From: Paracoccaceae bacterium
GTDB taxonomy: Bacteria; Pseudomonadota; Alphaproteobacteria; Rhodobacterales; Rhodobacteraceae
Assembly (NCBI GenBank): GCA_021296235.1
Contig: JAGWAS010000001.1
Coordinates: 1 to 64,000, forward strand
Direction: 5' to 3'
DNA: 64,000 nucleotides
Numbering within the stretch: the stretch's first letter is position 1; the number at the start of each line of letters is the position of its first letter. Below are positions 43,604-60,278 of the stretch, in pieces. The position numbers and the translations under genes were made by a program. The notes beneath the pieces are model-generated. The model saw only the letters and a program-made list of their open reading frames with translations. It was not told where the DNA came from and did no database searches.

Positions 43604-44056
43604 TCAGGCATCCGGCGGAATCACACCCTTGCGCAGCATGAAGCATCCATAGAAACGCCGCTCGCCAGTTTGAATTACCGCATATGAGTTTTTGGCAAGA
43701 TCGTAGAATGCGAACCGTTCAATGCTGATCATTGGGCGGCTTGCACCGGCGGAGGCGTCGATCTCCGCCTGAACCTCTCGCTGGACTGGAGGAATTTCAT
43801 TCGCATTTCCGACGATCTCCATTCGTCCGGCGAAATCGTCAACGAATGTGTCAAGAGGATAAACCGACAACACTGCCTGCGCCGCTTGCGCCGCCGTCAG
43901 GTTGTCCATTCGCAGCAGGTCGCCGAAAACTGTTTCGCGCGCAACTGAATCGGAAGGAAAATTCGTGTCTGCGAGGATCAGCACGTCTCCATGCCCCATT
44001 GCACGCAGCACAAACAGCACTTCGGCATTCAATCGTGGATCAATTCCCTTCAGCAT
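43604..44056 (-). CDS. RbsD/FucU family sugar mutarotase
   Basis: 150 aa: MLKGIDPRLNAEVLFVLRAMGHGDVLILADTNFPSDSVA...GERRFYGCFMLRKGVIPP; FucU pattern. Confidence 0.92.
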   Translation of the reverse strand: MLKGIDPRLNAEVLFVLRAMGHGDVLILADTNFPSDSVARETVFGDLLRMDNLTAAQAAQAVLSVYPLDTFVDDFAGRMEIVGNANEIPPVQREVQAEIDASAGASRPMISIERFAFYDLAKNSYAVIQTGERRFYGCFMLRKGVIPPDA

Positions 44057-44202: not shown

Positions 44203-45267
44203 TCAATTCATCCTCTGGCCCGTCCTGCGGTCAAAAAAGTGCATATTCGACGGATCAGCGGCGAGGTGAATGTGTTGGCCCGGCTTGAAATCCCCGCGTT
44301 CGCGCAGCACTGCAGTTACTTCCTTTCCCATCACATGAACAATGATATGGGTTTCGGCGCCAGTGGGCTCGACAACCGAAATCTGACCGGGAAGCCCGGC
44401 GGCGGCTGGAAACAGATGCTCCGGCCTAACTCCGACCGTTACATCCAAACCGTCTTCAGTGCCGCGCCGGTTCGGCGCCATCAGTCTCTGGCCACCAAAA
44501 TCCACCCACATTTTGCCATCTTCATGCCTGATCGCGGCATTCAGCATGTTCATCGACGGCGAACCGATGAAGCTCGCCACAAAAATGTTGTTGGGACGAT
44601 CATAAAGTTCGAGCGGCGGCCCGATTTGCTCAATATTGCCGGCTTGCATCACCACGATTCGATCTGCCATCGTCATGGCCTCAATCTGATCATGGGTTAC
44701 GTAAACCGTTGTGGTCTTCAGTCTTTGGTGCAACTCCCTGATTTCCGTGCGCATCTGCACCCGGAGCTTTGCGTCGAGATTGGACAGTGGTTCATCGAAA
44801 AGAAAAACCTGCGGGTCCCGCACGATTGCCCGCCCCATGGCGACGCGCTGCCGCTGACCACCCGAAAGTGCACGCGGATACCGATTCAAATATGGCTTGA
44901 GTCCCAAGATCTCCGAAGCCCGGTTTACCCGCTCCGCTATTTCCGCCTTGCCGACCTTCCGCATGCGCAATGCAAATGCCATGTTGGATGCAACAGTCTT
45001 GTGCGGATAGAGCGCGTAGTTCTGAAAAACCATTGCAATGTCACGTTGCGAAGGCGGCAGATTGTTAACCACGCGATCTCCGATCGAAATCCGTCCGGAA
45101 GTAATGTCCTCAAGTCCTGCGACCATTCGAAGCAGGGTTGATTTTCCACACCCAGACGGCCCCACAAGCACCACAAACTCGCCGTCGGGGATGTCAAAGC
45201 CGACTTCGTGGATCACTTCGACGGAGCCATAGCTCTTGCTGAGTTCCCTAATCCTGACATCCGCCAT
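44203..45267 (-). CDS. Sugar ABC transporter ATP-binding protein (UgpC/MalK-like)
   Basis: 354 aa: [57 protein letters not shown]...[40 protein letters not shown]-like C-terminus. Confidence 0.93.
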
Positions 45268-46200: not shown

Positions 46201-47490
46201 TTACCACGGACTCTGCTGAGTGGCGCGCACATGGTCGGGCATCCGGTAACTGATCCCTTCCTTGTCGTACTGAGTGGCATCGAAAATCTGCGTGAAGGAT
46301 TGTTCCTGCAACAACCAGCTTTTGGTCAGGAGGTTTGCGATCCGCGATCTCAATCGGTAATAGGAGAGGACCAAATTTCTGCTTCTGATGGTGTTCGGAT
46401 ACCCGTATTGATCTGCCAATTTGTTGCCGATAAGTGCGCGAGAGAGCCGGAAGGCATACAATTGCAGTGATTTTCTTTCCGCTTCGGTCTTGACTCCTGC
46501 CATCTCAGGGATGGCCTTGAACACTGAGCTTGCGACGCTCAGCGCATCATCATCCGGTGGTGGCTCGCACAGATGTCCGATTTCATAGAGCTGCCTTGCC
46601 TCAGCTTCGTTGGTGAAGAGAATTCCCTCCGGCACACCAATGACGCTGCCGCCATATCGCCATATCTTGACAATGCTACTCCGTTCCTCTTCAGTGATTT
46701 TTGAACCCATCGCCATGGCATGCTCGAATTGGCGAATGGAAAAGGTGTAAAGGGCAATTCCGCCCACATGAGCCGCGCTTAGCGGCGTTCCCCATGCATC
46801 GTGATCCCAAAGGTCGGAATCTGCCAGCAATTTTCTCATCCGTGCATGAACGAAACGGATTCGCATGGTTACCTTCCACCCCTCGCCGTCCCGTTTCATG
46901 CCGTTGGGAAAATAGGTCTCGACCATATGCCGGTTGTTTTGCCGGAGCCTTCGTACGGCCCCCGGTCCCAGCCCGGACACGCGCCCAGTGATTGAGAATG
47001 ATTTGCTGACCAAGGTTGAAAAGCCCTCAACCGCGCTTCCAATGGCGTAGGCAATGAGCATGTTGCTCATGTTGCTGAAGAAGGCACTCTGACCAGGCTT
47101 GAATTCGTCGAAATCGACCCAATCCGGCACCTCATAATTGTTGAAGAAGTCTCGCATAATCTGAGGCGCACTACGCAGCGTTTCGTTATCATCCTGCTCA
47201 ATACCGGCACGGATGAACCGATGCATCTGTTTGGGTGGGAGCTCAGCGAGTTCCTCCATCACGGGATCCAATTCAGCATCGCCAATCGTGGTGTGCCTGA
47301 TGTAGTTGTCGGCGACTTTCCGGTCGACATTGCGTGCCTTGGCGTAGCCTGCAGCGTAGCTGGTTGGAACGATCAGCTTGCCCGCTCCCTGCACATTTGC
47401 GGGCGCAGGCCGATCCAAAGGCGCGTGCTCCGAATTGCCTTCATGCGTTTGCGATGTTGCAGCCATTGGATCCAAATTTGCACTCAACAT
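46201..47490 (-). CDS. DUF2236/MpaB-family (latex-clearing-protein-like) putative heme oxygenase
   Basis: 429 aa: FNNYEVPDWVDFDEFKPGQSAFF...GSAVEGFSTLVSKSFSITGRVSGLGPGAVRRLRQNNRHMVETYFPNGMKRDGEGWKVTMRIRFVHARMRKLL. Confidence 0.75.
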   Translation of the reverse strand: MLSANLDPMAATSQTHEGNSEHAPLDRPAPANVQGAGKLIVPTSYAAGYAKARNVDRKVADNYIRHTTIGDAELDPVMEELAELPPKQMHRFIRAGIEQDDNETLRSAPQIMRDFFNNYEVPDWVDFDEFKPGQSAFFSNMSNMLIAYAIGSAVEGFSTLVSKSFSITGRVSGLGPGAVRRLRQNNRHMVETYFPNGMKRDGEGWKVTMRIRFVHARMRKLLADSDLWDHDAWGTPLSAAHVGGIALYTFSIRQFEHAMAMGSKITEEERSSIVKIWRYGGSVIGVPEGILFTNEAEARQLYEIGHLCEPPPDDDALSVASSVFKAIPEMAGVKTEAERKSLQLYAFRLSRALIGNKLADQYGYPNTIRSRNLVLSYYRLRSRIANLLTKSWLLQEQSFTQIFDATQYDKEGISYRMPDHVRATQQSPW

Positions 47491-48239: not shown

Positions 48240-49919
48240 ATGAAAGTCGAAGTTTTTGATCATTTCCGTCGAAATGGCGCAATCCGACGACGCGATATGC
48301 TAAAGGGGATGGCCGGAGCAGGAACGCTCGCCGCCTTCTCAGGTGTTTCGACCGGGCTTGGCGTTCGGCCGGTTTGGGCCGCCGACAACGCTCAACTGCG
48401 GGCCGAAATGCTTAAGATTCCAGGCGTCGGCATGGGTTCGCCGACGGATTCCGACTGGCAGGCTGTCGGCAAATTGGCCCTGGGCCCGACCAGGGAGGTT
48501 GTTGCCGAAGGTGAATTTTCAGGCGTCGAACTGACGTTTCTGGGTTTGAACAACCAAAATCTGCACAATTTCCTGTTTCGAGGATTTCTGAAGCCGTGGG
48601 AAGCCTATACGGGTGCAAGGATCAACTGGATTGATCTCGCTCAAGCTGACTACAACGCGCGACTGCAACAGTCGATTGCCACCGGCACCGTCGATTTTGA
48701 CATCATCGAAATGGGAGCTCCTTTCGAAGGCGACGTGCTCGGTCGCGGCATGGCCTCCGAAATGCCTGGTTGGGTGGCCGACCTGATCGACATGGACGAT
48801 TACGTGGGCTACCTGCAAGCTCCGGTCGGAACTTGGGACGGCAAGACCTACCGCATTTCGATCGACGGCGATTGCCATACTTTCGCCTACCGCAAGGATT
48901 ACTACGAAAACGAGGATTTCGCCGCAGCTTGGAAGGCAGCCGGGAACGAAAGCGATTGGGCGCCGCCGAAAACCTGGTCCGAAGTTAATGCCCACGCGAA
49001 GTTCCTCATTGGCAAGACCGATCCGCTGACGGGTCTTGACGCCCACGGGTTCCTTGATCCGCTGAAGGGTTGGGGCGGTTTTGGCTTCTATTTCCTTGAG
49101 GATCGCGCCACCGGATACGCCAAGCATCCAAGTGATCCAGCTTGGCTGTTTGACCCCGACACGATGAAACCAAGGGTAAACAACCCCGCATTCGTTCGTG
49201 CGATCCAAGAGGTCATGGACCTGATTGAAGCTGGCGCCTATCCGGCAGATCAGATCAATGCGGATCCTGGAACAACTGCATTCCAGCAATTCCTTGCCGG
49301 AACCGGCTCCGCCCTTACTTGGTGGGGCGATGTGGGTTCAAATGCCCGCACTTCAGACACTTCGGTCGTCGGCGATGTTGTTGGTTTCGACATCATACCT
49401 GCGGGAGATTCCGTCTGGAATTCAAGCACCGGCGCCTGGGAGGATGGAACCAACGAGTCACCCAACATGGCCTATATCGGTTGGGGGGTCTATGTCATGG
49501 CCACTGTCGACAGCGACTCCAAACGACAGAAGGCCGCATGGTCCGCGGCGGCACATCTTGGCGGCAAGGATCTCAGTCTTTGGGCTTCGGCCTATCCTTC
49601 CGGCTTTCAGCCCTACCGAAACTCGCATTTCAGGTATGAAGAGTGGGAAGAGGCAGGCTACGATCGCGCCTTTGTCGAGAACTACCTTGGCTCGAACGCC
49701 GACAGCTACAACCATTCAAACGCAGCGATCGAGCCGCGCATTCCCGGCATCTTTCAATACTATTCGGTTGCCGAAGATGAACTCGCAAAGGGATTTGCGG
49801 GTCAGTACGGGTCTGCTCAGGAAACAGCCGATGCCATTGCGGCGGCCTGGGAGAACATCACCGACCAAATCGGGCGGGATAGCCAGATCGCGCTCTACAA
49901 GGCAAGCCTTGGAATGTAG
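48240..49919 (+). CDS. Carbohydrate ABC transporter solute-binding protein with twin-arginine-like signal
   Basis: 559 aa: RRRDMLKGMAGAGTLAAFSG signal; GVELTFLGLNNQNLHNFLFRGFLKPWEAYTGARINWIDLAQADYNARLQQSIATGTVDFDIIEMGAPF. Confidence 0.88.
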   Translation: MKVEVFDHFRRNGAIRRRDMLKGMAGAGTLAAFSGVSTGLGVRPVWAADNAQLRAEMLKIPGVGMGSPTDSDWQAVGKLALGPTREVVAEGEFSGVELTFLGLNNQNLHNFLFRGFLKPWEAYTGARINWIDLAQADYNARLQQSIATGTVDFDIIEMGAPFEGDVLGRGMASEMPGWVADLIDMDDYVGYLQAPVGTWDGKTYRISIDGDCHTFAYRKDYYENEDFAAAWKAAGNESDWAPPKTWSEVNAHAKFLIGKTDPLTGLDAHGFLDPLKGWGGFGFYFLEDRATGYAKHPSDPAWLFDPDTMKPRVNNPAFVRAIQEVMDLIEAGAYPADQINADPGTTAFQQFLAGTGSALTWWGDVGSNARTSDTSVVGDVVGFDIIPAGDSVWNSSTGAWEDGTNESPNMAYIGWGVYVMATVDSDSKRQKAAWSAAAHLGGKDLSLWASAYPSGFQPYRNSHFRYEEWEEAGYDRAFVENYLGSNADSYNHSNAAIEPRIPGIFQYYSVAEDELAKGFAGQYGSAQETADAIAAAWENITDQIGRDSQIALYKASLGM

Positions 49920-49926
49920 AATCGGA

Positions 49927-49958
49927 ATTGCCGCCGGCGGTTTTCCGTCGGCGGCGAT
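49927..49958 (+). promoter_or_regulatory. Intercistronic RNA hairpin between the sugar solute-binding-protein gene and the permease gene
   Basis: ATTGCCGCCGGCGG-tttt-CCGTCGGCGGCGAT: 14-bp stem with two G-T wobbles, 4-nt loop, beginning 7 nt after the stop codon (49917-49919). Confidence 0.75.
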
Positions 49959-49990
49959 CAACGGCAAATCCAACCAGGTGCAGCGGCGAA

Positions 49991-51106
49991 TTGGCGGGAC
50001 ACGGCGACCTCCTGCATGTTGTAACGGCTGACGAGATCAGCGAGCGGCGAAGAACGTTCGGCCGCCTGCTCGTCTGGGGTTCGCTGGGCCTCATGGTTAT
50101 GACTTTTGCCGCGCTGGGACTTGCCCAATCAGGCGTCATCGAACTGGATTTCAAGGATTGGCGGCCTGCACTTTATGCTTACCTGTTCTGGGCAACCTGT
50201 CTTGGCATTGCCCAAGTCGTACTCCACGGAGAGCAGGGAAAGAGATCGCTATTCATTCTGCCGGCCACGCTGTTTGTGGTTGCAATGGTCATTTTTCCAC
50301 TGATTTTCGCACTCGGCATTGCATTTTCGAACTGGAACCTCTCTTCGCTCGAAGGACGCTCGTTCAACGGCTTCGACAATTTGCGTCAAATGTGGGGCGA
50401 CCCCTTCTACTGGAACGCCTTGAAAAACATGCTGTACTACACGGCTGCGATTCTCGTCGAATACGCAATCGCTTTTGGTCTGGCACTAATTCTTGCTTCA
50501 AACATCCGTGGTCGCAGATTTTTTCGGGTTGCCTTCCTTCTTCCCCTGATGCTGTCTCCGGTGGCCGTAAGCTGGATGATCGGCAAATCAATGATGGAAA
50601 CCCGCTTTGGGCCGATTGCGCGTTTTGCGCGCTGGCTTGGCTGGGATCGGCCGTCATTTTTTGGTGATCCGGAAATTGCTCGGGCCACAATCATGATGAT
50701 GGATGCCTGGACCTACATTCCTTTCATGCTGATCATGATTCTTGCCGGACTGCAGGCAATCCCGCGCGAAATCCAGGAAGCATCGCGTGTCGATGGTGCC
50801 AGCGCATGGCGTGGATTTTGGGAAGTTACGTTTCCGCTTATGTTGCCGGTGTCCATTACCGCCATTCTCATCAGGGTGATCTTCAAGCTCAAGCTTGCCG
50901 ACATCATCATTAACGTAACCTCCGGTGGACCCGGCGGTGCCACCGACAGCGTTACGAGTTTTATATTTCGGGAATATCGGGATCGATCAAATGTTGGTTA
51001 CGGCACGCTTCTGGCGATCGTCTACCTTGTGTTGATTGTAGTGGCGATCACGGCATTCATGAAACTTGTCAACCGTTGGATGAACCCGAAGTACCTTCAT
51101 GGCTGA
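49991..51106 (+). CDS. Carbohydrate ABC transporter permease (UgpA/MalF-like)
   Basis: EIQEASRVDGASAWRGFWEVTFPLMLPVSITAILIRVIFKLKLADIIINVTSGGPGGATDSVTSFIFREYRD. Start uncertain: the ORF-track start (49928) sits inside the hairpin, so a downstream TTG (49991) is proposed. Confidence 0.85.
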   Translation: MAGHGDLLHVVTADEISERRRTFGRLLVWGSLGLMVMTFAALGLAQSGVIELDFKDWRPALYAYLFWATCLGIAQVVLHGEQGKRSLFILPATLFVVAMVIFPLIFALGIAFSNWNLSSLEGRSFNGFDNLRQMWGDPFYWNALKNMLYYTAAILVEYAIAFGLALILASNIRGRRFFRVAFLLPLMLSPVAVSWMIGKSMMETRFGPIARFARWLGWDRPSFFGDPEIARATIMMMDAWTYIPFMLIMILAGLQAIPREIQEASRVDGASAWRGFWEVTFPLMLPVSITAILIRVIFKLKLADIIINVTSGGPGGATDSVTSFIFREYRDRSNVGYGTLLAIVYLVLIVVAITAFMKLVNRWMNPKYLHG

Positions 51107-52019
51107 ACTTCAGATATTCCATGACAGTGATGTTGACCTGCGACATCGCGCCAAGCACTTTACCGGCCGTGTGGTGATCTACGGGGGGCTGTTGGTTTGG
51201 ACGGTCATCTGTCTGTTTCCGATTTACTGGACGCTCACAACGTCCTTCAAACTGGCCCCCAACGTCATGCAGGGCCACCTTGTGCCATTCTTGGATTTCA
51301 CACCAAAGTGGAAGGGATGGGAATCAATCGGCCTGTCGCCACGGCTGATCGGTCAGGAATCCACGGTTCGCGAGGAATTCCTGAAACGGTTCACCAATTC
51401 CACAATAGCTGCATGTGCGTCGTCAATTTTGGCGCTTATTCTCGGAAGCATGGCCGCCTATGGGTTGTCGCGGTTTCAATACCGGTTTGGATTCATGCGG
51501 AATTCCGACATTTCATTCTTTTTCCTGTCGCAGTTGATCCTTCCTCCCGTTGTTTTGGCTCTGCCCTTTCTTGTTCTCTACAAGCAGCTTGACCTGCTGG
51601 ACACGCGAATTGGACTGATCCTGCTCTACACCCTCACCGTTTTGCCGATCGTGATCTGGATCATGCGGGACCAGTTCCAAGCCATACCGGTCGAACTGGA
51701 GGAGGCCGCGCTCGTCGACGGGCTGTCGATATGGGGAGCGTTTATTGCAATCGTGCTGCCGATCGCGCTTCCCGGCATGGTGGCAGCCTTCATCCTGTCA
51801 CTGGTGCTGACCTGGAACGAGTACTTCTTTGCAGCCCTTCTGACATCAACCGATGCAAAGACCTTGCCGGTGATGGTCGCAAGTCAAACCGGCAGTCAGG
51901 GCATCAACTGGTGGGCGATGGCCGCCCTTTCGGCATCCGCAATCTTGCCGCTGATCGTCATCGGCATCCTGTTGGAACGATTCATAATCAAGGGCATGGC
52001 TGCCGGAGCCGGTCGCTGA
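51099..52019 (+). CDS. Carbohydrate ABC transporter permease (UgpE/MalG-like)
   Basis: 306 aa: WTVICLFPIYWTLTTSFKLAPNVM...ELEEAALVDGLSIWGAFIAIVLPIALPGMVAAFILSLVLTWNEYFFAALL. Confidence 0.9.
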   Translation: MAELQIFHDSDVDLRHRAKHFTGRVVIYGGLLVWTVICLFPIYWTLTTSFKLAPNVMQGHLVPFLDFTPKWKGWESIGLSPRLIGQESTVREEFLKRFTNSTIAACASSILALILGSMAAYGLSRFQYRFGFMRNSDISFFFLSQLILPPVVLALPFLVLYKQLDLLDTRIGLILLYTLTVLPIVIWIMRDQFQAIPVELEEAALVDGLSIWGAFIAIVLPIALPGMVAAFILSLVLTWNEYFFAALLTSTDAKTLPVMVASQTGSQGINWWAMAALSASAILPLIVIGILLERFIIKGMAAGAGR

Positions 52020-52251: not shown

Positions 52252-53805
52252 TCATTCTTTCGGTTGCATCGACAAAATTGAACTGACGGGATTGCTCGTT
52301 GACAACTGTTTCTCGCCCCCAAGCGCATGTGAGATGTCCCTTGTTTGAGAATACAGTTGCTTGAACAGCTCAAATTGACGTTCGTGAACCGGTTGGCAAT
52401 CGGGTTCAACAATTTCGGCGACAGGGTTCCATTTGACTATGTCGGACGGTCGGGCGGCACCCACCGCGCAAGCACCCAGGAAGGCGTCGCCCAAGGATGC
52501 CCCGATCGTGTTCCTGCACACATGTTGCCGCACCCTCCCTATATCCGACATTGACTGAAGCCATATCCGGTTTTTTGTTCCTCCTCCAACCGCCAACACC
52601 CGCGCAGGTGTCGCCCCAATGTCGCGGTAGGCTTCAAGGACATGTGCGGTTCCATAGGCAATCCCTTCGATCAGGGCGCGGTAGATGTCACCGCGAGTAT
52701 GCGTAAGGTTGAGGCCGAACAGCACACCCTTTGCGTCAGGGTCATGGATCGGTGAGCGTTCTCCTGAAAAATGCGGAAGCAGAAGAAGGCCATTTGATCC
52801 CGGCGGCGATTCTGCGGCTTCTTCGGACAGTTTCTCAAATGCCGACCCGTTCGGCAATTCCCTGGCAAAACGGCTGCGAAACCAGCGGGTCAGCGTTCCG
52901 CTTGTTGCCAGACCGGCCATGGATGCATGGCTCCCCGGATACAACCACGGTGCGTACCAAAGGCGCGAATCTTGCATCTTTCGCTCAACCAATTGGATCA
53001 TGAACACCGTAGAGCCGTACATCAACATCATGTCGCCTGGATCCTGCACTCCCACGCCAACCGCCTCAGCGGCTGCATCTATTGTCCCGACGGCAACCGG
53101 CGTGCCCTCCGCAAGACCTGTTTCGCAAGCGGCATCAGCAGTAACCCTGCCGGCAATCTCCGTGGTCCAGCGCAACTCCGGCAATTGATCGATCGAACAG
53201 ACGTCGTCGGCAATTTCTGTGGACCAGCACTGCCTGTTGACATCGTAAACGGGGCTGAAGTTGGCTGCAGTGTAGTGATCAATCACACACTCGCCTGTCA
53301 GTTTCATGGTGAGGTAGCTGGTGGATGTCATGAATTTGGCCGCCGCCGAAAAGATTTCCGGCCGGTTTCGCCTCAGCCAGAGAATCTTCGGTCCCACGGA
53401 TTGCGAAGTCAGTGCATTTCCGCAGGTCGCCATGATGGCTTCGGATCCGATCCTTCGCGTGAGTTCAGACACTTCCAAATCCGACCGCGTGTCAACACCA
53501 TAGAGAACTGCATTCATAAGCGGACGCCCCGAAGCGTCGACAGGCAGCATGCAGGGACCAATTGCACTTGCCGCAACACAGGCGATGTTGTGCGGATCAA
53601 CCGCGGAACGCTGCAAAAGGTCGCGCGTAACAATTCTGAAATCGTTCCACCAATCGGCATCTGCGCGGTGCTCCGCCCAGCCCGGCCGGGGAACAATCAT
53701 ATCGTGCTGCACAGAGGCATGGGCAATCAAATTGCCGTCCAGATCCGCAAGCACACCCTTTGATTCGTAGGTCCCGATATCGATGCCGAGCACTCTCTGT
53801 GTCAC
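52252..53805 (-). CDS. FGGY-family carbohydrate kinase (xylulokinase/fuculokinase-like)
   Basis: 517 aa: MTQRVLGIDIGTYESKGVLADLDGNL...GWAEHRADADWWNDF...GTIDAAAEAVGVGVQDPGDMMLMYGSTVFMI...RALIEGIAYGTAHVLEAY...LAVGGGTKN. Confidence 0.92.
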   Translation of the reverse strand: MTQRVLGIDIGTYESKGVLADLDGNLIAHASVQHDMIVPRPGWAEHRADADWWNDFRIVTRDLLQRSAVDPHNIACVAASAIGPCMLPVDASGRPLMNAVLYGVDTRSDLEVSELTRRIGSEAIMATCGNALTSQSVGPKILWLRRNRPEIFSAAAKFMTSTSYLTMKLTGECVIDHYTAANFSPVYDVNRQCWSTEIADDVCSIDQLPELRWTTEIAGRVTADAACETGLAEGTPVAVGTIDAAAEAVGVGVQDPGDMMLMYGSTVFMIQLVERKMQDSRLWYAPWLYPGSHASMAGLATSGTLTRWFRSRFARELPNGSAFEKLSEEAAESPPGSNGLLLLPHFSGERSPIHDPDAKGVLFGLNLTHTRGDIYRALIEGIAYGTAHVLEAYRDIGATPARVLAVGGGTKNRIWLQSMSDIGRVRQHVCRNTIGASLGDAFLGACAVGAARPSDIVKWNPVAEIVEPDCQPVHERQFELFKQLYSQTRDISHALGGEKQLSTSNPVSSILSMQPKE

Positions 53806-54914
53806 GGCTGCTCCCGGTCGCGAAGCACAGAAAATTCCGGCCCAACATTTCCAATGCAGGCAATCAGCAACCGGGTCAATTCCTCGAGATCAGCGAGATC
53901 GCAGACCTCCAGACTGGAATGCGAATAGCGCAGCGGAAACCCCGCATCTATGACCGCCGCACCCTCGCCCACAACCTGAACGTAGGAATTGTCTGTCAGC
54001 ACACCGCACTGTGCGCTGCGCTGAAGGGAAATTCCCTCGCTCGCTGCCGTATCAACGAACAGTTCCACCATGGCAGGGTGCGGTATCACGCCGTTCAGCG
54101 TTCCGCGCCCGTGGAAAGAGTACAGGCTGATCCCAGGGCCAGCTCCGAGTTCCATGCTTCCCCGCTCGACCATGCCGGGATTGTCTGTCGCGAGCATGAT
54201 GTCAACCTGTATCGCAATGTCCGGTGCCAGGGCCCGCGCCGCAACGACAGCCCCGCGCAAATTGAATTCCTCCTGAACCGCAAAAACGACATGCACCGTC
54301 GGTCCTCCAACTCTTGCTGTGAGCGCATGTGCAACCTCAAGCAGCACCGCGCATCCGGCACGATCATCCACTGAAGTTCCGGCAATGCGGTCGCCGGCCA
54401 GCTCGACGACCCGAGGACTGTACACCACCGGTGTTCCGATCCGGACGCCAGCCGCTTCCAATTCCGACTTTGAAGCATGACCGGTGTCGACGACAACATC
54501 ACGAACCGGAACAACGACATGCTTTTCTTCCGGCGGCGTTGCATGATGGCTCATATTTGCGATCACACCGGCGACATCGCGTCCTTCAGCAACGCACAGC
54601 GTTACGGCCTGCGATGCAACTGCGCGTTCAGGAACCCCTCCCAATCGCTCGACGCGCACCAACCCATCTTCACGAATCTTGCGCACAACGAATCCAAGCT
54701 GGTCCATGTGGGTGAACAACATGACAGGAGGTGCATCCGGATCGCCTTCGAATGTTGATATGAGATTGCCGAGTCGATCGCTCCTTGAAACGGCACCCAT
54801 TCCGTCCAACATGGCTGCAATCCGTTTGCGGACCCTGTCCTCGTGCCCGCTGAGGCCAGGTATCAGCATCAGTTCAATGAGATGGGAGCGCAGTCGGCTC
54901 TTCACTGCCGGCAC
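53802..54914 (-). CDS. M42-family metallopeptidase (SgcX/FrvX-like)
   Basis: 370 aa: LIPGLSGHEDRVRKRIAAMLDGMG...RLGNLISTFEG...VMLFTHMDQLGFVVRKI...GTSVDDRAGCAVLLEVAHAL...VVFAVQEEFNLRGAVVAARALAPDIAIQVDIMLATD. ATGA overlap with the kinase gene. Confidence 0.88.
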   Translation of the reverse strand: MPAVKSRLRSHLIELMLIPGLSGHEDRVRKRIAAMLDGMGAVSRSDRLGNLISTFEGDPDAPPVMLFTHMDQLGFVVRKIREDGLVRVERLGGVPERAVASQAVTLCVAEGRDVAGVIANMSHHATPPEEKHVVVPVRDVVVDTGHASKSELEAAGVRIGTPVVYSPRVVELAGDRIAGTSVDDRAGCAVLLEVAHALTARVGGPTVHVVFAVQEEFNLRGAVVAARALAPDIAIQVDIMLATDNPGMVERGSMELGAGPGISLYSFHGRGTLNGVIPHPAMVELFVDTAASEGISLQRSAQCGVLTDNSYVQVVGEGAAVIDAGFPLRYSHSSLEVCDLADLEELTRLLIACIGNVGPEFSVLRDREQP

Positions 54915-55717
54915 CTCCTTGCGGCCTTCGCCCTGAGCATGAATTCGACGGCACGGTTCGGGTCGACCGGGTTCCAGGTGTCACCGTCGATCTTGAGAGC
55001 CGAACCTACTATGCAACCGTCCGCGACCTTGAGCACATCCGCAACTGTGTCATGATTTACGCCTGTGTTTGCAAGAACGGGCATGTCGGGCAGCGCCGCT
55101 TTCACCGACGCCAGTTCCGATATCGGTGCCGCCTCCCCAGTGATGGTGCCGGACACCAGCACTGCATCCGGAATGCTGGAAAAAACTGCACTCCTTGCCC
55201 GATCTGCAACGGGCCGCCGATCCAGACTGTCGGCAAATTCCGCCGACACATTGAACAGCATCGCCACATCTTGGCAACCGAGTCGATTGCGATAGCGCAT
55301 GGAGGAGGCCGCGTCCGGGTTCCAGAGTCCCATGTCAGAGGCATGGATGCCGGTGAATATCTCACGGACGAAACTGGCACCTGTGGCAGCGGCAAGTGCA
55401 ACAGTGCTCATCGGATCCCAAAGGACATTGACGCCGAACGGAATCGATATTTCATCCCGCAGCCTTCCGATCAGATAAGCCATGGTCGCGGTTGAGGCGC
55501 AGTCGGCATTAAGTTCATAGGGCCGATCGTTTTCGTTGCCGAACATCACCGCATCAAATCCGGCCGACTGAAGAGCCTGAAGATCGCTGCGCGCCGCTCG
55601 AAGCAAACCCTCAATTCCGGCATCGGCATCATAAAGTGGCGCTCCCGGCAGTGCACCAAAATGCACCATGCCGATGACTGGCCTGACCTGTGCGAATATC
55701 CTGCAAAATCTGTCCAA
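54902..55717 (-). CDS. BtpA/SgcQ family protein
   Basis: LDRFCRIFAQVRPVIGMVHFGALPGAPLYDADAGIEGLLRAARSDLQALQSAGFDAVMFGNENDRPY...GVNVLWDPMSTVALAAATGASFVREIFTGIHASDMGLW...VLANTGVNHDTVADVLKVADGCIVGSALKIDG. TTG at 55717 with upstream GGAGA preferred over the longer ORF. Confidence 0.88.
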   Translation of the reverse strand: MDRFCRIFAQVRPVIGMVHFGALPGAPLYDADAGIEGLLRAARSDLQALQSAGFDAVMFGNENDRPYELNADCASTATMAYLIGRLRDEISIPFGVNVLWDPMSTVALAAATGASFVREIFTGIHASDMGLWNPDAASSMRYRNRLGCQDVAMLFNVSAEFADSLDRRPVADRARSAVFSSIPDAVLVSGTITGEAAPISELASVKAALPDMPVLANTGVNHDTVADVLKVADGCIVGSALKIDGDTWNPVDPNRAVEFMLRAKAARRCRQ

Positions 55718-55817: not shown

Positions 55818-56846
55818 ATGGCGATCCGAACCAAACATTGGGACCGATTGGGAAATGGCGGGCTGAGCTTTACGGAATTGGGCGTTGGCACTGCGCCTCT
55901 CGGCAATCTGTACCGGGCCATAAGCGACGAAACCGCCCACAGCATGTTGGATCTCGCTTGGGACTCTGGGCTTCGCTATTTCGACACCGCGCCTCTCTAT
56001 GGATTCGGATTGGCGGAGACGCGACTCAACAGGCTGTTGCGGGGCAAACCGCGCAACAGCCTCACCCTTTCAACCAAGATCGGACGAATCCTGCATGCAA
56101 CTGCACCCGAAACCCGCGATGGAATTGGCAAGTGGTTCGAAGTTCCCAGTCGGCAAGAGATCTACGATTATACCTATGACGGTGTACTTCGTTCGCTTGA
56201 ATTCTCCCTGGAACGGCTTGGAATGGACCGGGTAGATATCCTCTATGCCCATGATCTCGACATTTTCAATCACGGCAGCAGGGAAGCACTGGACAATAGA
56301 CTTAAAGAGTTCATGGCAGGTGGATATCGCGCCCTTTCCGAAATGCGCGACCAAGGTGTAATTCGTGCCTTCGGTGCAGGCCTCAACGAATGGGAACCGT
56401 GCCAGTGGCTCGCCGAGCGGGGTGACTTCGACATCTTTCTGCTTGCCGGACGCTATAGCCTGCTTGAGCAGGATGCCCTTTCCTCCTTCCTGCCGCTCTG
56501 CGTTGATCGCGGCATCGGAATAGTGATCGGAGGACCATACAATTCCGGGATTCTTGCAACCGGTCCAAGGGAAGGCGCATTCTACAACTACGACCCCGCT
56601 CCTCAGCGCATTCTCGAACGCGTCGGGCGGATTGAAGCAGTTTGCGCCAGTCACAGAATCAAACTTGCCGAAGCGGCACTGCAGTTTCCGATTCGCCATC
56701 CCGCCGTCGTTTCGGTCATTCCGGGTGGCCAAGGCATTGAGGAAATGGAAACTAATTTGGCGGCGGCACAAGCCTCCATTCCGACGGAACTCTGGGCTGA
56801 ACTGAAGTCGGAAGGGCTGATGCGCGCCGACGCACCCACAGATTGA
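55818..56846 (+). CDS. Aldo/keto reductase (L-fucose dehydrogenase / D-threo-aldose dehydrogenase-like)
   Basis: MAIRTKHWDRLGNGGLSFTELGVGTAPLGNLYRAISDETAHSMLDLAWDSGLRYFDTAPLYGFGLAETRLNRLLRGK...LSTKIGRIL...VISVIPGG-like C-terminus. Confidence 0.9.
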   Translation: MAIRTKHWDRLGNGGLSFTELGVGTAPLGNLYRAISDETAHSMLDLAWDSGLRYFDTAPLYGFGLAETRLNRLLRGKPRNSLTLSTKIGRILHATAPETRDGIGKWFEVPSRQEIYDYTYDGVLRSLEFSLERLGMDRVDILYAHDLDIFNHGSREALDNRLKEFMAGGYRALSEMRDQGVIRAFGAGLNEWEPCQWLAERGDFDIFLLAGRYSLLEQDALSSFLPLCVDRGIGIVIGGPYNSGILATGPREGAFYNYDPAPQRILERVGRIEAVCASHRIKLAEAALQFPIRHPAVVSVIPGGQGIEEMETNLAAAQASIPTELWAELKSEGLMRADAPTD

Positions 56847-56853
56847 ACCGGTC

Positions 56854-57696
56854 GTGATTAAGATCGACGCTCATCAGCACTACTGGAATCCAGCGCGGGG
56901 CGATTATGGCTGGATGCCGAAGAACGACGCCATCCTCGCACGCCCCTATGGCCCACACGATTTGGAACCTGAGCTGAAGTCGAACGGAATTGGTGCCACC
57001 ATCCTTGTGCAGGCGGCAGCAACGGTATGCGAAACCGAATATCTTCTCGGTTTGGCGGACTCGATTCCCGGAGTGGCCGGGGTCGTGGGATGGGTGGATT
57101 TCGAAGTGCCCTCGGACCGCAAGACGCTTGAGCGCCTCGCCGGTCATCCGAAATTTGTCGGTGTCCGCCCAATGATCCAGGACATTCCCGATGACGATTG
57201 GATGTTGCGCAACGACGTGCAGTGGGGATTCCGTTCGGTCGAAGAGTTGGGCCTCACATTCGATGCCCTTGGTTTTCCGAGACATCTCGGGAATTTCCTC
57301 AAGATTCTCAGGAGATACCCGAACCTGCGAACGGTCATCGATCATTGCATGAAACCACAGATCCGCAACCACTCCAAGAGCAATTTCGACTTCTGGGCGG
57401 ATGGAATGCGGCGATTGGCCGAAGAAACCGGTGCATACTGCAAGTTTTCGGGGTTGGTTACCGAAGCGAACGAGATTTGGAACGTTGCGGAACTTGAGCC
57501 CTATTCCGAGCACATATTTGAAGTATTCGGAAGCAGCAGGGTCATGTGGGGGTCGGACTGGCCCGTATGTCGACTCAGAACCGAATACTCCGGCTGGTTC
57601 GAAGCTGCGCATTGCCTTTCAGCAGGCTTGACCGATCCGGAGCGTGCACTGATCTTCGGTGGCACGGCTGTTGAATTCTATGGCCTTGATCTATGA
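56854..57696 (+). CDS. Amidohydrolase family protein (sugar lactonase-like, e.g. L-fuconolactonase)
   Basis: 280 aa, GTG start: IKIDAHQHYWNPARGDYGWM...GVVGWVDFEVPSDRKTLERLAGHPKFVGVRPMIQDIPDDDWMLR...VMWGSDWPVC. Confidence 0.9.
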   Translation: MIKIDAHQHYWNPARGDYGWMPKNDAILARPYGPHDLEPELKSNGIGATILVQAAATVCETEYLLGLADSIPGVAGVVGWVDFEVPSDRKTLERLAGHPKFVGVRPMIQDIPDDDWMLRNDVQWGFRSVEELGLTFDALGFPRHLGNFLKILRRYPNLRTVIDHCMKPQIRNHSKSNFDFWADGMRRLAEETGAYCKFSGLVTEANEIWNVAELEPYSEHIFEVFGSSRVMWGSDWPVCRLRTEYSGWFEAAHCLSAGLTDPERALIFGGTAVEFYGLDL

Positions 57697-58578
57697 GTCA
57701 TTCATGAAGGCGAGGACTTCTCGACGCCCGATTCGGTTCCGGTTCTCCACTTTGCGGGAAACATGAATTGCAGCTGCAGATTGTGCAAATTCCAAGGCAG
57801 ATTCCAAGGCTTTGCCGCGAGCCATCTCGGCAGCCAATGCCCCGACAAACGCATCTCCCGCTCCGTGGGTGGAAACAACGGGGACAGGATTGGCGGTCAA
57901 CCTGAGATCATTCTCATCCCGCCTGACCAAAATCAGGCCGTCGGCACCCAAGGTGGCGATGACTGCTGGTGGACCCAGCGCAGCGAGTTTTTCCGGCATT
58001 TCGGCTCCGCGTGTTCCCGTAAGTTGTTCTGCTTCGCACCGGTTGACAATCAAGAGATCGACGCGATCCAGAAGTTCGGGGCAAACCTGATGCGCCGGTG
58101 CTGCGTTCAGAATAACCGTCCTTTGTTTCCCTGCCTGACGGGCAACGGCGACATTGGCCGCCTCAGGTATTTCGTTTTGGAGCAAAACCACCCCTGCGCT
58201 TTCCGGAACATTGATCATCTGTCCGTCGATGGCGGAATTGGCGCCGGAAACAATAACCGCACCATATTCGCCGGACGAATCGACAATTGCCACGCTCATC
58301 CCTGATTTGCCGTCCGAAACCACCACCTGCGTGCGGTCCACACCGGCGCCGTCCAGTTCCTTGAGCAGCTGTCGGCCAAACTGATCACTGCCAACCCGGC
58401 CGGCCATTGCCGTGCTTGCGCCGAATCGCGCCGCTGCAACCGCCTGATTGCCCCCTTTGCCGCCGAATCGGCAGTCAACAGATTGTCCGATTACGGTTTC
58501 ATCAATGGCCGGAAGGTGCGGCGCGCCAACGACCACGTCCAGATGCAGCGCACCAACAACAAAAACACCTCCGATCAA
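57691..58578 (-). CDS. Ribokinase-like PfkB-family sugar kinase
   Basis: 295 aa: GGVFVVGALHLDVVVGAPHLPAIDETVIGQSVDCRFGGKGGNQAVAAARFGA...VVSTHGAGDAFVGALAAEMARG. Confidence 0.92.
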   Translation of the reverse strand: MIGGVFVVGALHLDVVVGAPHLPAIDETVIGQSVDCRFGGKGGNQAVAAARFGASTAMAGRVGSDQFGRQLLKELDGAGVDRTQVVVSDGKSGMSVAIVDSSGEYGAVIVSGANSAIDGQMINVPESAGVVLLQNEIPEAANVAVARQAGKQRTVILNAAPAHQVCPELLDRVDLLIVNRCEAEQLTGTRGAEMPEKLAALGPPAVIATLGADGLILVRRDENDLRLTANPVPVVSTHGAGDAFVGALAAEMARGKALESALEFAQSAAAIHVSRKVENRNRIGRREVLAFMNDS

Positions 58579-58581
58579 TAA

Positions 58582-59571
58582 TCAAACTGCCCTGAACAGC
58601 GACTTGGACACGATCTTCTGGCTCTTCACCGCGTCCTGTTGTTCGATGGCCGCCCTCAGTTCCGAATTGTCCATCAATTCAACGGCAAGCCGCCTGAGAT
58701 GTTCAGTGTTCGCAATGTTTGCTCGACATTCCTCAACCGGATCCAAGCCGGATTGCTCCGGAAAGGTATCGAAGTAAATGACGCCGTTGAAGTTGATGTT
58801 GGCCAATTCCAAAAACAATTCGATGACCTGTTGCGGGTGAACCGTTCCGACCATGAGACCGTCGTCGCGCTTGCCGTAGCCATCATTGAGATGCACCCCG
58901 AGAAGATTGCTGTTGCGTGCAATGAGATGAACCGAGTGCGCAGGCATTTCATCAGCATAGAGTACATGTGCGAAGTCAAGGGTTACACCGACATTGGGGC
59001 GGTCCACCTCACGCAGGCCAAGAAGTGTCGTTGCCGCGTCAGGCATAAGGGCATAGGCGCGCGGTTCATTCGGTTTGTATTCGATCGCAATGTCAATTTC
59101 CGGATTGTGATCGGCAACCTCGGCAACGGCAGCGACTGTACGGTTCCACAATTCGGCATAGTTCGCCTGAAACGAGTAATCAAATCCATCCTGTCCCAAC
59201 CAGAGTGTCATGAGAGATCCGCCCATGCGCGCCACAACATCAATGCCACTCTTCGTGAGATCGATTGCCTTGCGACGCATGGAAGCATCCGGATTGGTGA
59301 ACGCACCAGCGGCAAAATTTGGTTCTGTGTAGTAGCGCATCGCCAGACCATTCAGGGCCATCCCCTGATCGTCGAGAAACCGAGACAATTCACCGGCATC
59401 GTTCTCGGCAAAGTGGTCCGGATAATTGAGATCTGCAGCCGAAAGTCCGCCCACCCGACCGGCAGCCTTTATCATAGCCTCAACTTGGGATTCGGCCTCA
59501 ACACCAACTTGCGCCTTGAACGCATTGAGCCGCGCCGCATATCTCGGCCGATATTCTCGATCTTCGTTCAA
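58582..59571 (-). CDS. TIM-barrel sugar isomerase/epimerase family protein
   Basis: LNEDREYRPRYAARLNAFKAQVG...IDIAIEYKPNEPRAYALMPDAATTLLGLREVDRPNVGVTLDFAHVLYADEMPAHSVHLIARNSNLLGVHLNDGYGKRDDGLMVGTVHPQQVIELFLELANINFNGVIYFDTFP. Start trimmed to a TTG at 59571; uncertain. Confidence 0.85.
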   Translation of the reverse strand: MNEDREYRPRYAARLNAFKAQVGVEAESQVEAMIKAAGRVGGLSAADLNYPDHFAENDAGELSRFLDDQGMALNGLAMRYYTEPNFAAGAFTNPDASMRRKAIDLTKSGIDVVARMGGSLMTLWLGQDGFDYSFQANYAELWNRTVAAVAEVADHNPEIDIAIEYKPNEPRAYALMPDAATTLLGLREVDRPNVGVTLDFAHVLYADEMPAHSVHLIARNSNLLGVHLNDGYGKRDDGLMVGTVHPQQVIELFLELANINFNGVIYFDTFPEQSGLDPVEECRANIANTEHLRRLAVELMDNSELRAAIEQQDAVKSQKIVSKSLFRAV

Positions 59572-60278
59572 CCGGTTGACATCCCGTCCGCAACGGACAG
59601 TTTGGTGGGATTGCCCGAACCGGCACCATTGGTTTTCGAGGATGTTGGAACCGACCGTTTCCGCCATTCAGTCGGGTGGGTGCATTCTTCAGAATTCAGG
59701 CGGTCAAATTGCCGACCAAATTGACCTTGTGTGCCAACACCGGCCCGTCCGATCCTTGATCGCGTCTGCGGAATTTCTTGTTTGCCGCCCATCGGATTGT
59801 TGGAATGCAACTGTCCATCGCGTTGAAAACAAAGATTGGAAATGTTGATGAATCCGAACGTTCGAACAGGAACATATTTTGGCCAATTGTCAGCACTCTT
59901 TGGATCTGTCTTGCCGTGCAAAGCCGGAAATCCGGCGTTGGTTGAGCCGGCCGCTACACAATTGAACCTCTGCTGAGCGGCAATGCTGGCCCATTGCCCG
60001 CGCTCGCCCGCCCACAGTTCGATCCCGGCACAGTCGAGATGCCAACCGTTCCGGGTGATTGGCACTTTGCCGCTGTGCTCCACATCCATGGACGGATTTC
60101 CCCTGCAAAGGCTGACATGAGAAAGATTGAATGCCATCAAAACATACTCAATCGGGAATGTGAAACCGCCATAACTCGGAAAGTGAGGTCGGCAGGCGTT
60201 TTTCCTCAAACAAAATTCCGCCGGAAACAAAAGGACACGAACATCATTGCTGCCAGTGGAATCGGTTGGACAGTCGGG

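Follow-up and report, generated by a model that had tools for sequence, protein, structure and literature searches.

A BtpA–M42–FGGY gene unit in an alphaproteobacterial ABC sugar-import cluster, and a candidate phosphosugar route through BtpA

The sgc operon, one of the cryptic sugar operons of Escherichia coli K-12, encodes an M42-type protein, SgcX, together with SgcQ, a member of BtpA, a widely distributed family whose reaction is unsettled. Of 5426 complete E. coli genomes, 1672 carry the operon, which is repressed by SlyA (PMC5797941) and induced on some nitrogen-containing carbon sources (PMC13343008); the published work names no substrate (PMC5797941, PMC13343008). A 64,000-nucleotide stretch from a Paracoccaceae bacterium (contig JAGWAS010000001.1 of assembly GCA_021296235.1, positions 1 to 64,000; hereafter the window) likewise holds an SgcX-type M42 protein and a BtpA/SgcQ protein in one sugar-uptake operon, here with an FGGY carbohydrate kinase. 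The window proteins are 35% identical to SgcX and 44% identical to SgcQ, which bears out the initial annotation of the pair. The locus has ATP-binding cassette (ABC) transporter genes rather than the SgcABC phosphotransferase system (PTS): among 51 full-length related loci, none matched SgcC or SgcA and no SgcE-like epimerase was found.

Gene order, co-occurrence, conserved residues, transporter exchange and a predicted fold, all observed or computed, lead us to infer the catalytic steps, their order and the kind of substrate. We give an even chance to the reading that the locus is an ABC-fed catabolic operon for a sugar conjugate, in which M42 trims, FGGY phosphorylates and BtpA converts, with the kinase-BtpA pair as the core and M42 as a feeder.

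The triad and its recurrence

The three genes lie head to tail on the minus strand, each overlapping the next, with all junctions read directly. The BtpA gene (54902..55717; PF03437, E 7.6e-73; TIGR00259, 246 bits against a cut-off of 153) starts at a TTG at 55717, with GGAG 8 nt upstream, and stops at a TGA at 54904-54902. The M42 gene (53802..54905; PF05343, E 7.6e-72) has its longest open reading frame from a GTG at 54914, and that start gives the 13-nt overlap with BtpA described initially. On sequence grounds, however, the GTG at 54905 is the better candidate start: it agrees with the alignment of relatives and has a Shine-Dalgarno sequence, AAGGAGG, 8 nt upstream, read directly on the minus strand at 54914..54920 within the 3' end of the BtpA gene. 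With this start, the overlap is a 4-nt GTGA. The M42 stop, TGA at 53804-53802, overlaps the GTG start of the FGGY gene at 53805 by 4 nt as well; the overlap length first reported holds, whereas its sequence reads GTGA and not ATGA. Translational coupling across these junctions is predicted and likely. The FGGY kinase (52252..53805; FGGY_N, E 2e-44; FGGY_C, E 5e-26) is closest in NCBIfam to xylulokinase, TIGR01312, at 296 bits, under the cut-off of 380. A second BtpA-like match in the same genome (contig C36) scores 30 bits over part of the profile only and is not counted as a BtpA. The host genome comprises 3.16 Mb in 42 contigs, and loci related to the window are almost all alphaproteobacterial.

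The triad recurs well beyond this genome. Among the 80 BtpA loci in GTDB genomes nearest in sequence, 77 hold an SgcX-type M42 gene, which lies within 200 nt of BtpA in 51 (mechanical open reading frame ends); BtpA-M42-FGGY is the commonest order, and 71 of the 74 FGGY-M42 pairs are adjacent. All 51 full-length related loci contain FGGY. Because this set is related by design, two even genome samples were examined as well. In 289 alphaproteobacterial genomes, BtpA occurs in about 15, full-length M42 in about 24 and both in 3; the two genes are adjacent in two of these, and the third has the same cluster type, broken by a contig end. When a profile of the linked M42s was run against 399 pseudomonadotal genomes, five scored 488-669 bits and the next M42 scored 213; all five carry BtpA within a few kb of the M42 gene. 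With the window genome excluded, the four M42 genomes all fall among the 18 BtpA genomes (hypergeometric p ~3e-6, ignoring kinship). The proposed co-occurrence above background is therefore upheld, as is the idea that the triad is real and not a chance arrangement, since its order recurs in most of the nearest 80 loci. BtpA, M42 and FGGY form a widely conserved unit, paired beyond chance. Viral contigs yielded no BtpA relatives, and a search of open-licence papers for BtpA in connection with FGGY kinases, M42 or the family accessions turned up no relevant report.

The M42 protein belongs to a recognizable type. Its metal-ligand and catalytic positions H69, D183, E215, E216, D238 and H332 are conserved in an alignment with M42 relatives, and it carries the motifs QEEFNLRG and HGRGTLNG. 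The window, CUT2-linked and PTS-linked M42s have in common QEEFN(L/I)RG, an inserted HGRGTLxG and T(D/E)xxYxQ; FrvX, YpdE and the remaining M42s in the alignment, from Bacillota and other proteobacteria, lack these three motifs. At the HGRGTLxG position, the loop is shorter in the two archaeal M42s that come closest in the PDB. Scores lie far under the cut-off of every named aminopeptidase equivalog: the window M42 reaches at best 156 against 412, and SgcX 187 against 412. In the M42 tree, from which suspect rows, probably wrong-frame reading frames, were excluded, constraining the linked M42s to a single clade with SgcX gives a tree better by 5.4 log units, a difference that is not significant (approximately unbiased (AU) test, p 0.64). 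A single origin is the best tree found for these sequences and is not statistically required. A Deinococcus peraridilitoris M42 (locus L176, 3965-5074) has intermediate motifs, QEEFSIRG and TDGSFMQ, and lies beside a peptide-type importer, an NlpC/P60 protein and a dipeptide epimerase; it may be an SgcX-type relative engaged in peptide use.

BtpA and its partners

An AlphaFold2 model of BtpA, built with 42 homologues, is a TIM barrel predicted with confidence (pLDDT 88.9, pTM 0.90). Its top Foldseek matches are dihydropteroate synthase, tryptophan synthase alpha (TrpA), KDPGal aldolase, HisF, PcrB and ribulose-phosphate epimerase (RPE), with E values of about 1e-7 to 1e-6 for TrpA, HisF, KDPGal aldolase and RPE, and most of the top matches bind phosphorylated ligands. 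BtpA is accordingly modelled as a TIM barrel of the phosphate-binding type. A sequence search of the PDB gave a weak tryptophan-synthase-like match only. The residues conserved in all or nearly all of 56 members include H19, N61, R118, R141, R168, D184, G190, G219, G234 and K242 (numbering in the source output is shifted by one). Their positions relative to the predicted strands suggest a catalytic mouth and a phosphate loop at strands 6-8.

The near-constant partner of BtpA is a kinase. Of the 107 loci with enough flank, 95 have an FGGY or PfkB kinase no further than 5 kb from BtpA, against a chance expectation of about 7% (18 kinases in the 3.16-Mb genome; the background is taken from family counts in three genomes). 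The link spans several clades of the BtpA tree, including FGGY-linked members with or without M42 and PfkB-linked members, and at a haloarchaeal locus an annotated carbohydrate kinase adjoins BtpA. The PTS-linked loci L044, L129 and L134 have M42 and BtpA without an FGGY or PfkB kinase, which fits because a PTS phosphorylates its sugar at import.

M42, by comparison, comes and goes. A single clade of M42-linked BtpAs is rejected (AU p 5e-28), and 12 of the 15 alphaproteobacterial genomes with BtpA lack M42. At loci L046 and L091, BtpA is followed directly by a triad-type FGGY gene with no M42 in the cluster, and a search of these two genomes found no SgcX-type M42 elsewhere. Clusters that are otherwise alike can do without M42. 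In four genomes of Brucellaceae (Brucella/Ochrobactrum; L090, L118, L121 and L123), the only BtpA of the genome stands between two complete importer sets: a CUT1 importer with SDR, FGGY, HAD and DeoR and no M42, and a CUT2 importer with M42, DeoR and an FGGY unlike the first. Most simply read, a single BtpA serves both import routes; the four loci count as one lineage, and they form a natural experiment on what BtpA shares between the two.

The transporter varies as well. SgcX-type M42s occur with three kinds: PTS (in E. coli, on a Salmonella plasmid and in genome G524), CUT1 ABC (the window) and CUT2 ABC. The last is seen in L067, L102 and L137, ordered DeoR-BtpA-permease-M42-FGGY-solute-binding protein-ATPase-permease, with the Peripla_BP_4 and BPD_transp_2 domains of a CUT2-like importer. 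Finding the same M42 type with all three importers supports the earlier description of the association as transporter-independent.

A proposed pathway and its alternatives

Taken together, these observations are consistent with the following scheme. A CUT1-type importer would bring in a sugar conjugate, and the SgcX-type M42, a probable dinuclear metallohydrolase, would remove its substituent, presumably at an amide and possibly at an ester or lactone. The FGGY kinase would phosphorylate the sugar, the job done by the PTS at import in E. coli sgc, and BtpA would turn the phosphosugar into a compound that enters central metabolism, perhaps as an isomerase, epimerase, lyase or retro-aldolase. 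The M42 step may precede or follow phosphorylation; the PTS version would require the enzyme to act on a phosphorylated compound. In this scheme M42 would be a feeder for one class of substrate and the kinase-BtpA pair the core. The earlier suggestion of an unusual sugar survives in part: "phosphorylated" fits BtpA, and "amide-linked" stays a guess about M42. A broader and more tentative proposal, to which we give about a one-in-three chance, is that BtpA/SgcQ proteins are a phosphosugar-converting family at which varied importers, kinases (FGGY, PfkB or PTS) and trimming hydrolases (M42, perhaps M20 and others) converge.

Several points weigh against this scheme. The fold matches of BtpA are modest, with TM-scores of 0.5-0.6, and pick out no single reaction; no substrate or activity is known for M42 or BtpA members; and deletions of sgcC and sgcX left growth unimpaired on the carbon sources tried (PMC13343008). 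At ten of the 107 BtpA loci, no kinase and no PTS lies within 5 kb. In L037, L038, L095 and L182 a kinase either stands a little beyond that distance or scores under the threshold; none is seen in L125, L126 and L146, while L033, L034 and L148 hold divergent BtpAs. The loci are related, so the counts are not independent events, and the mutual exclusion of PTS and kinase is known from one enterobacterial lineage.

The neighbouring genes raise the best-surviving alternative. On the plus strand, an extracellular solute-binding protein of twin-arginine translocation type (48240..49919) is conserved across clusters and is followed by two importer permeases, at 49928..51106 (BPD_transp_1, E 7e-17; reading frame as listed, its true start may be later) and 51099..52019 (BPD_transp_1, E 8e-15). 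The solute-binding protein has 559 aa and scores about 850-1050 bits across clusters; it matched no Pfam, NCBIfam or PDB family at a useful threshold, and with no match in the PDB sequence search its ligand is not named. The importer ATPase, of UgpC/MalK type (44203..45267, minus strand; NCBIfam UgpC, 510 bits, over the cut-off of 432), and an RbsD/FucU-family sugar mutarotase (43604..44056, minus strand; PF05025, E 1e-33) are both syntenic in relatives, and an MpaB/Lcp-type oxygenase gene (46201-47490, minus strand) lies between the ATPase and solute-binding protein genes. Beyond BtpA come an aldo/keto reductase (55818..56846, plus strand), whose closest solved relatives are L-galactose dehydrogenases; an amidohydrolase_2 protein resembling L-fucono-1,5-lactonase (56854..57696, plus strand; NF052480, 201 bits; PDB 4dlf, E 1.5e-36); a PfkB/ribokinase-like kinase (57691..58578, minus strand; PF00294, E 6e-50); and a xylose-isomerase-like TIM barrel (58582..59667, minus strand; PF01261; PDB 3ktc, E 1.7e-55). 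In a relative's cluster (L021, 11899-16776), deoxyribose-phosphate aldolase, ribokinase and aldehyde dehydrogenase genes adjoin that for RbsD, and they hint at a product resembling (deoxy)ribose.

The entire cluster might then be a pathway for L-fucose, L-galactose or a similar sugar, built on the FucU mutarotase, the aldo/keto dehydrogenase and the lactonase, with M42, BtpA and the kinase as accessories. The closest solved relatives point this way, as does synteny in the full-length loci, where the reductase occurs in 33 of 51, the lactonase-like protein in 27 and RbsD in 26. We nevertheless consider this unlikely. The triad stands in the CUT2 operons L067, L102 and L137 without any of these genes, which places them outside the minimal unit; the mutarotase (86.5 against 141) and the lactonase (201 against 400) fall below their named equivalog cut-offs; and an oxidative route would need no FGGY kinase.

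Somewhat less probable still is the initial proposal, taken to mean that M42 and BtpA carry out one obligatory two-enzyme step on an amide-linked or phosphorylated sugar, with the kinase incidental. SgcX-type M42s are nearly always near BtpA, and the linked M42s share motifs and a single origin that the tree test did not reject. The dependence does not run the other way, however: most alphaproteobacterial BtpA genomes lack M42, the M42-linked BtpAs are not one clade, and BtpA accompanies whole gene sets without M42, as in L046, L091 and the Brucellaceae, while its near-constant partner is the kinase. A joint step is poorly supported. Least probable, and in our judgement quite improbable, is that M42 acts as an ordinary aminopeptidase and BtpA in assembly or as a scaffold, in an operon for processing rather than sugar chemistry: the fold relatives of M42 are aminopeptidases and BtpA is named for photosystem I biogenesis (its NF045918 match is below cut-off), but the window M42 and SgcX fall far short of the named aminopeptidase cut-offs and differ at the QEEVG/GGTDA-type motifs, the invariant polar residues of BtpA suit an enzyme, and the genomic context is sugar import and kinases.

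Comparison with known systems

Set beside described M42 aminopeptidases (TET, FrvX and YpdE), the SgcX-type proteins have the same fold and metal-binding residues. The HGRGTLxG loop is missing from the aminopeptidases, however, and in them QEEVG and GGTDA/G-type motifs take the place of the QEEFN and TDxSY of the SgcX type.

Two other kinds of BtpA cluster resemble the window in part. The BtpA-FGGY-SDR-HAD-DeoR clusters of rhizobia, Shinella, Labrenzia and Thermus share with it a BtpA that is 53-68% identical, an FGGY kinase and a CUT1 importer, but they lack M42, their FGGY is distant, and SDR and often HAD are added. The BtpA-PfkB-TenA/M20-phosphotriesterase clusters of Pantoea, Agrobacterium and Paracoccus resemble it in placing BtpA by a sugar kinase and an ABC importer, often with a zinc hydrolase, whereas their BtpA is about 28-31% identical to the SgcQ/FGGY-linked type, the kinase is PfkB, the importer is CUT2-type and M42 is absent. 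Loci L127, L128, L135, L136 and L180 hold such a distant BtpA with PfkB, a CUT2 importer, a phosphotriesterase-like protein and a glutamine amidotransferase, some with TenA or an M20-type hydrolase in addition. The closest non-enterobacterial relatives of SgcQ (68-69%), at L125 and L126, have no M42 and no adjacent FGGY or PfkB kinase; their neighbours are an ABC importer, a PIG-L deacetylase, a Gfo/Idh oxidoreductase and an alpha/beta hydrolase. Locus L071, from a genome titled Mycobacterium sp. KBS0706 (G662), has three BtpA genes and an alphaproteobacterial-looking cluster very like that of Inquilinus (L079), and the Mycobacterium name may be a misassignment. If BtpA is indeed a point of convergence for such clusters, a family associated so far mostly with photosystem I biogenesis and with the cryptic sgc operon would gain its first metabolic role.

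The sgc operon itself shares with the window the SgcX-type M42 and the BtpA/SgcQ protein, and both M42s carry all three motifs of the linked type. They differ in that sgc has a PTS, the RPE-like SgcE and another gene order, whereas the window has an ABC importer and an FGGY kinase. Stappia, Ruegeria and Hoeflea are among the alphaproteobacteria that keep the operon whole and probably use it, and the comparison with sgc gives a testable order: kinase or PTS, then BtpA, with M42 feeding.

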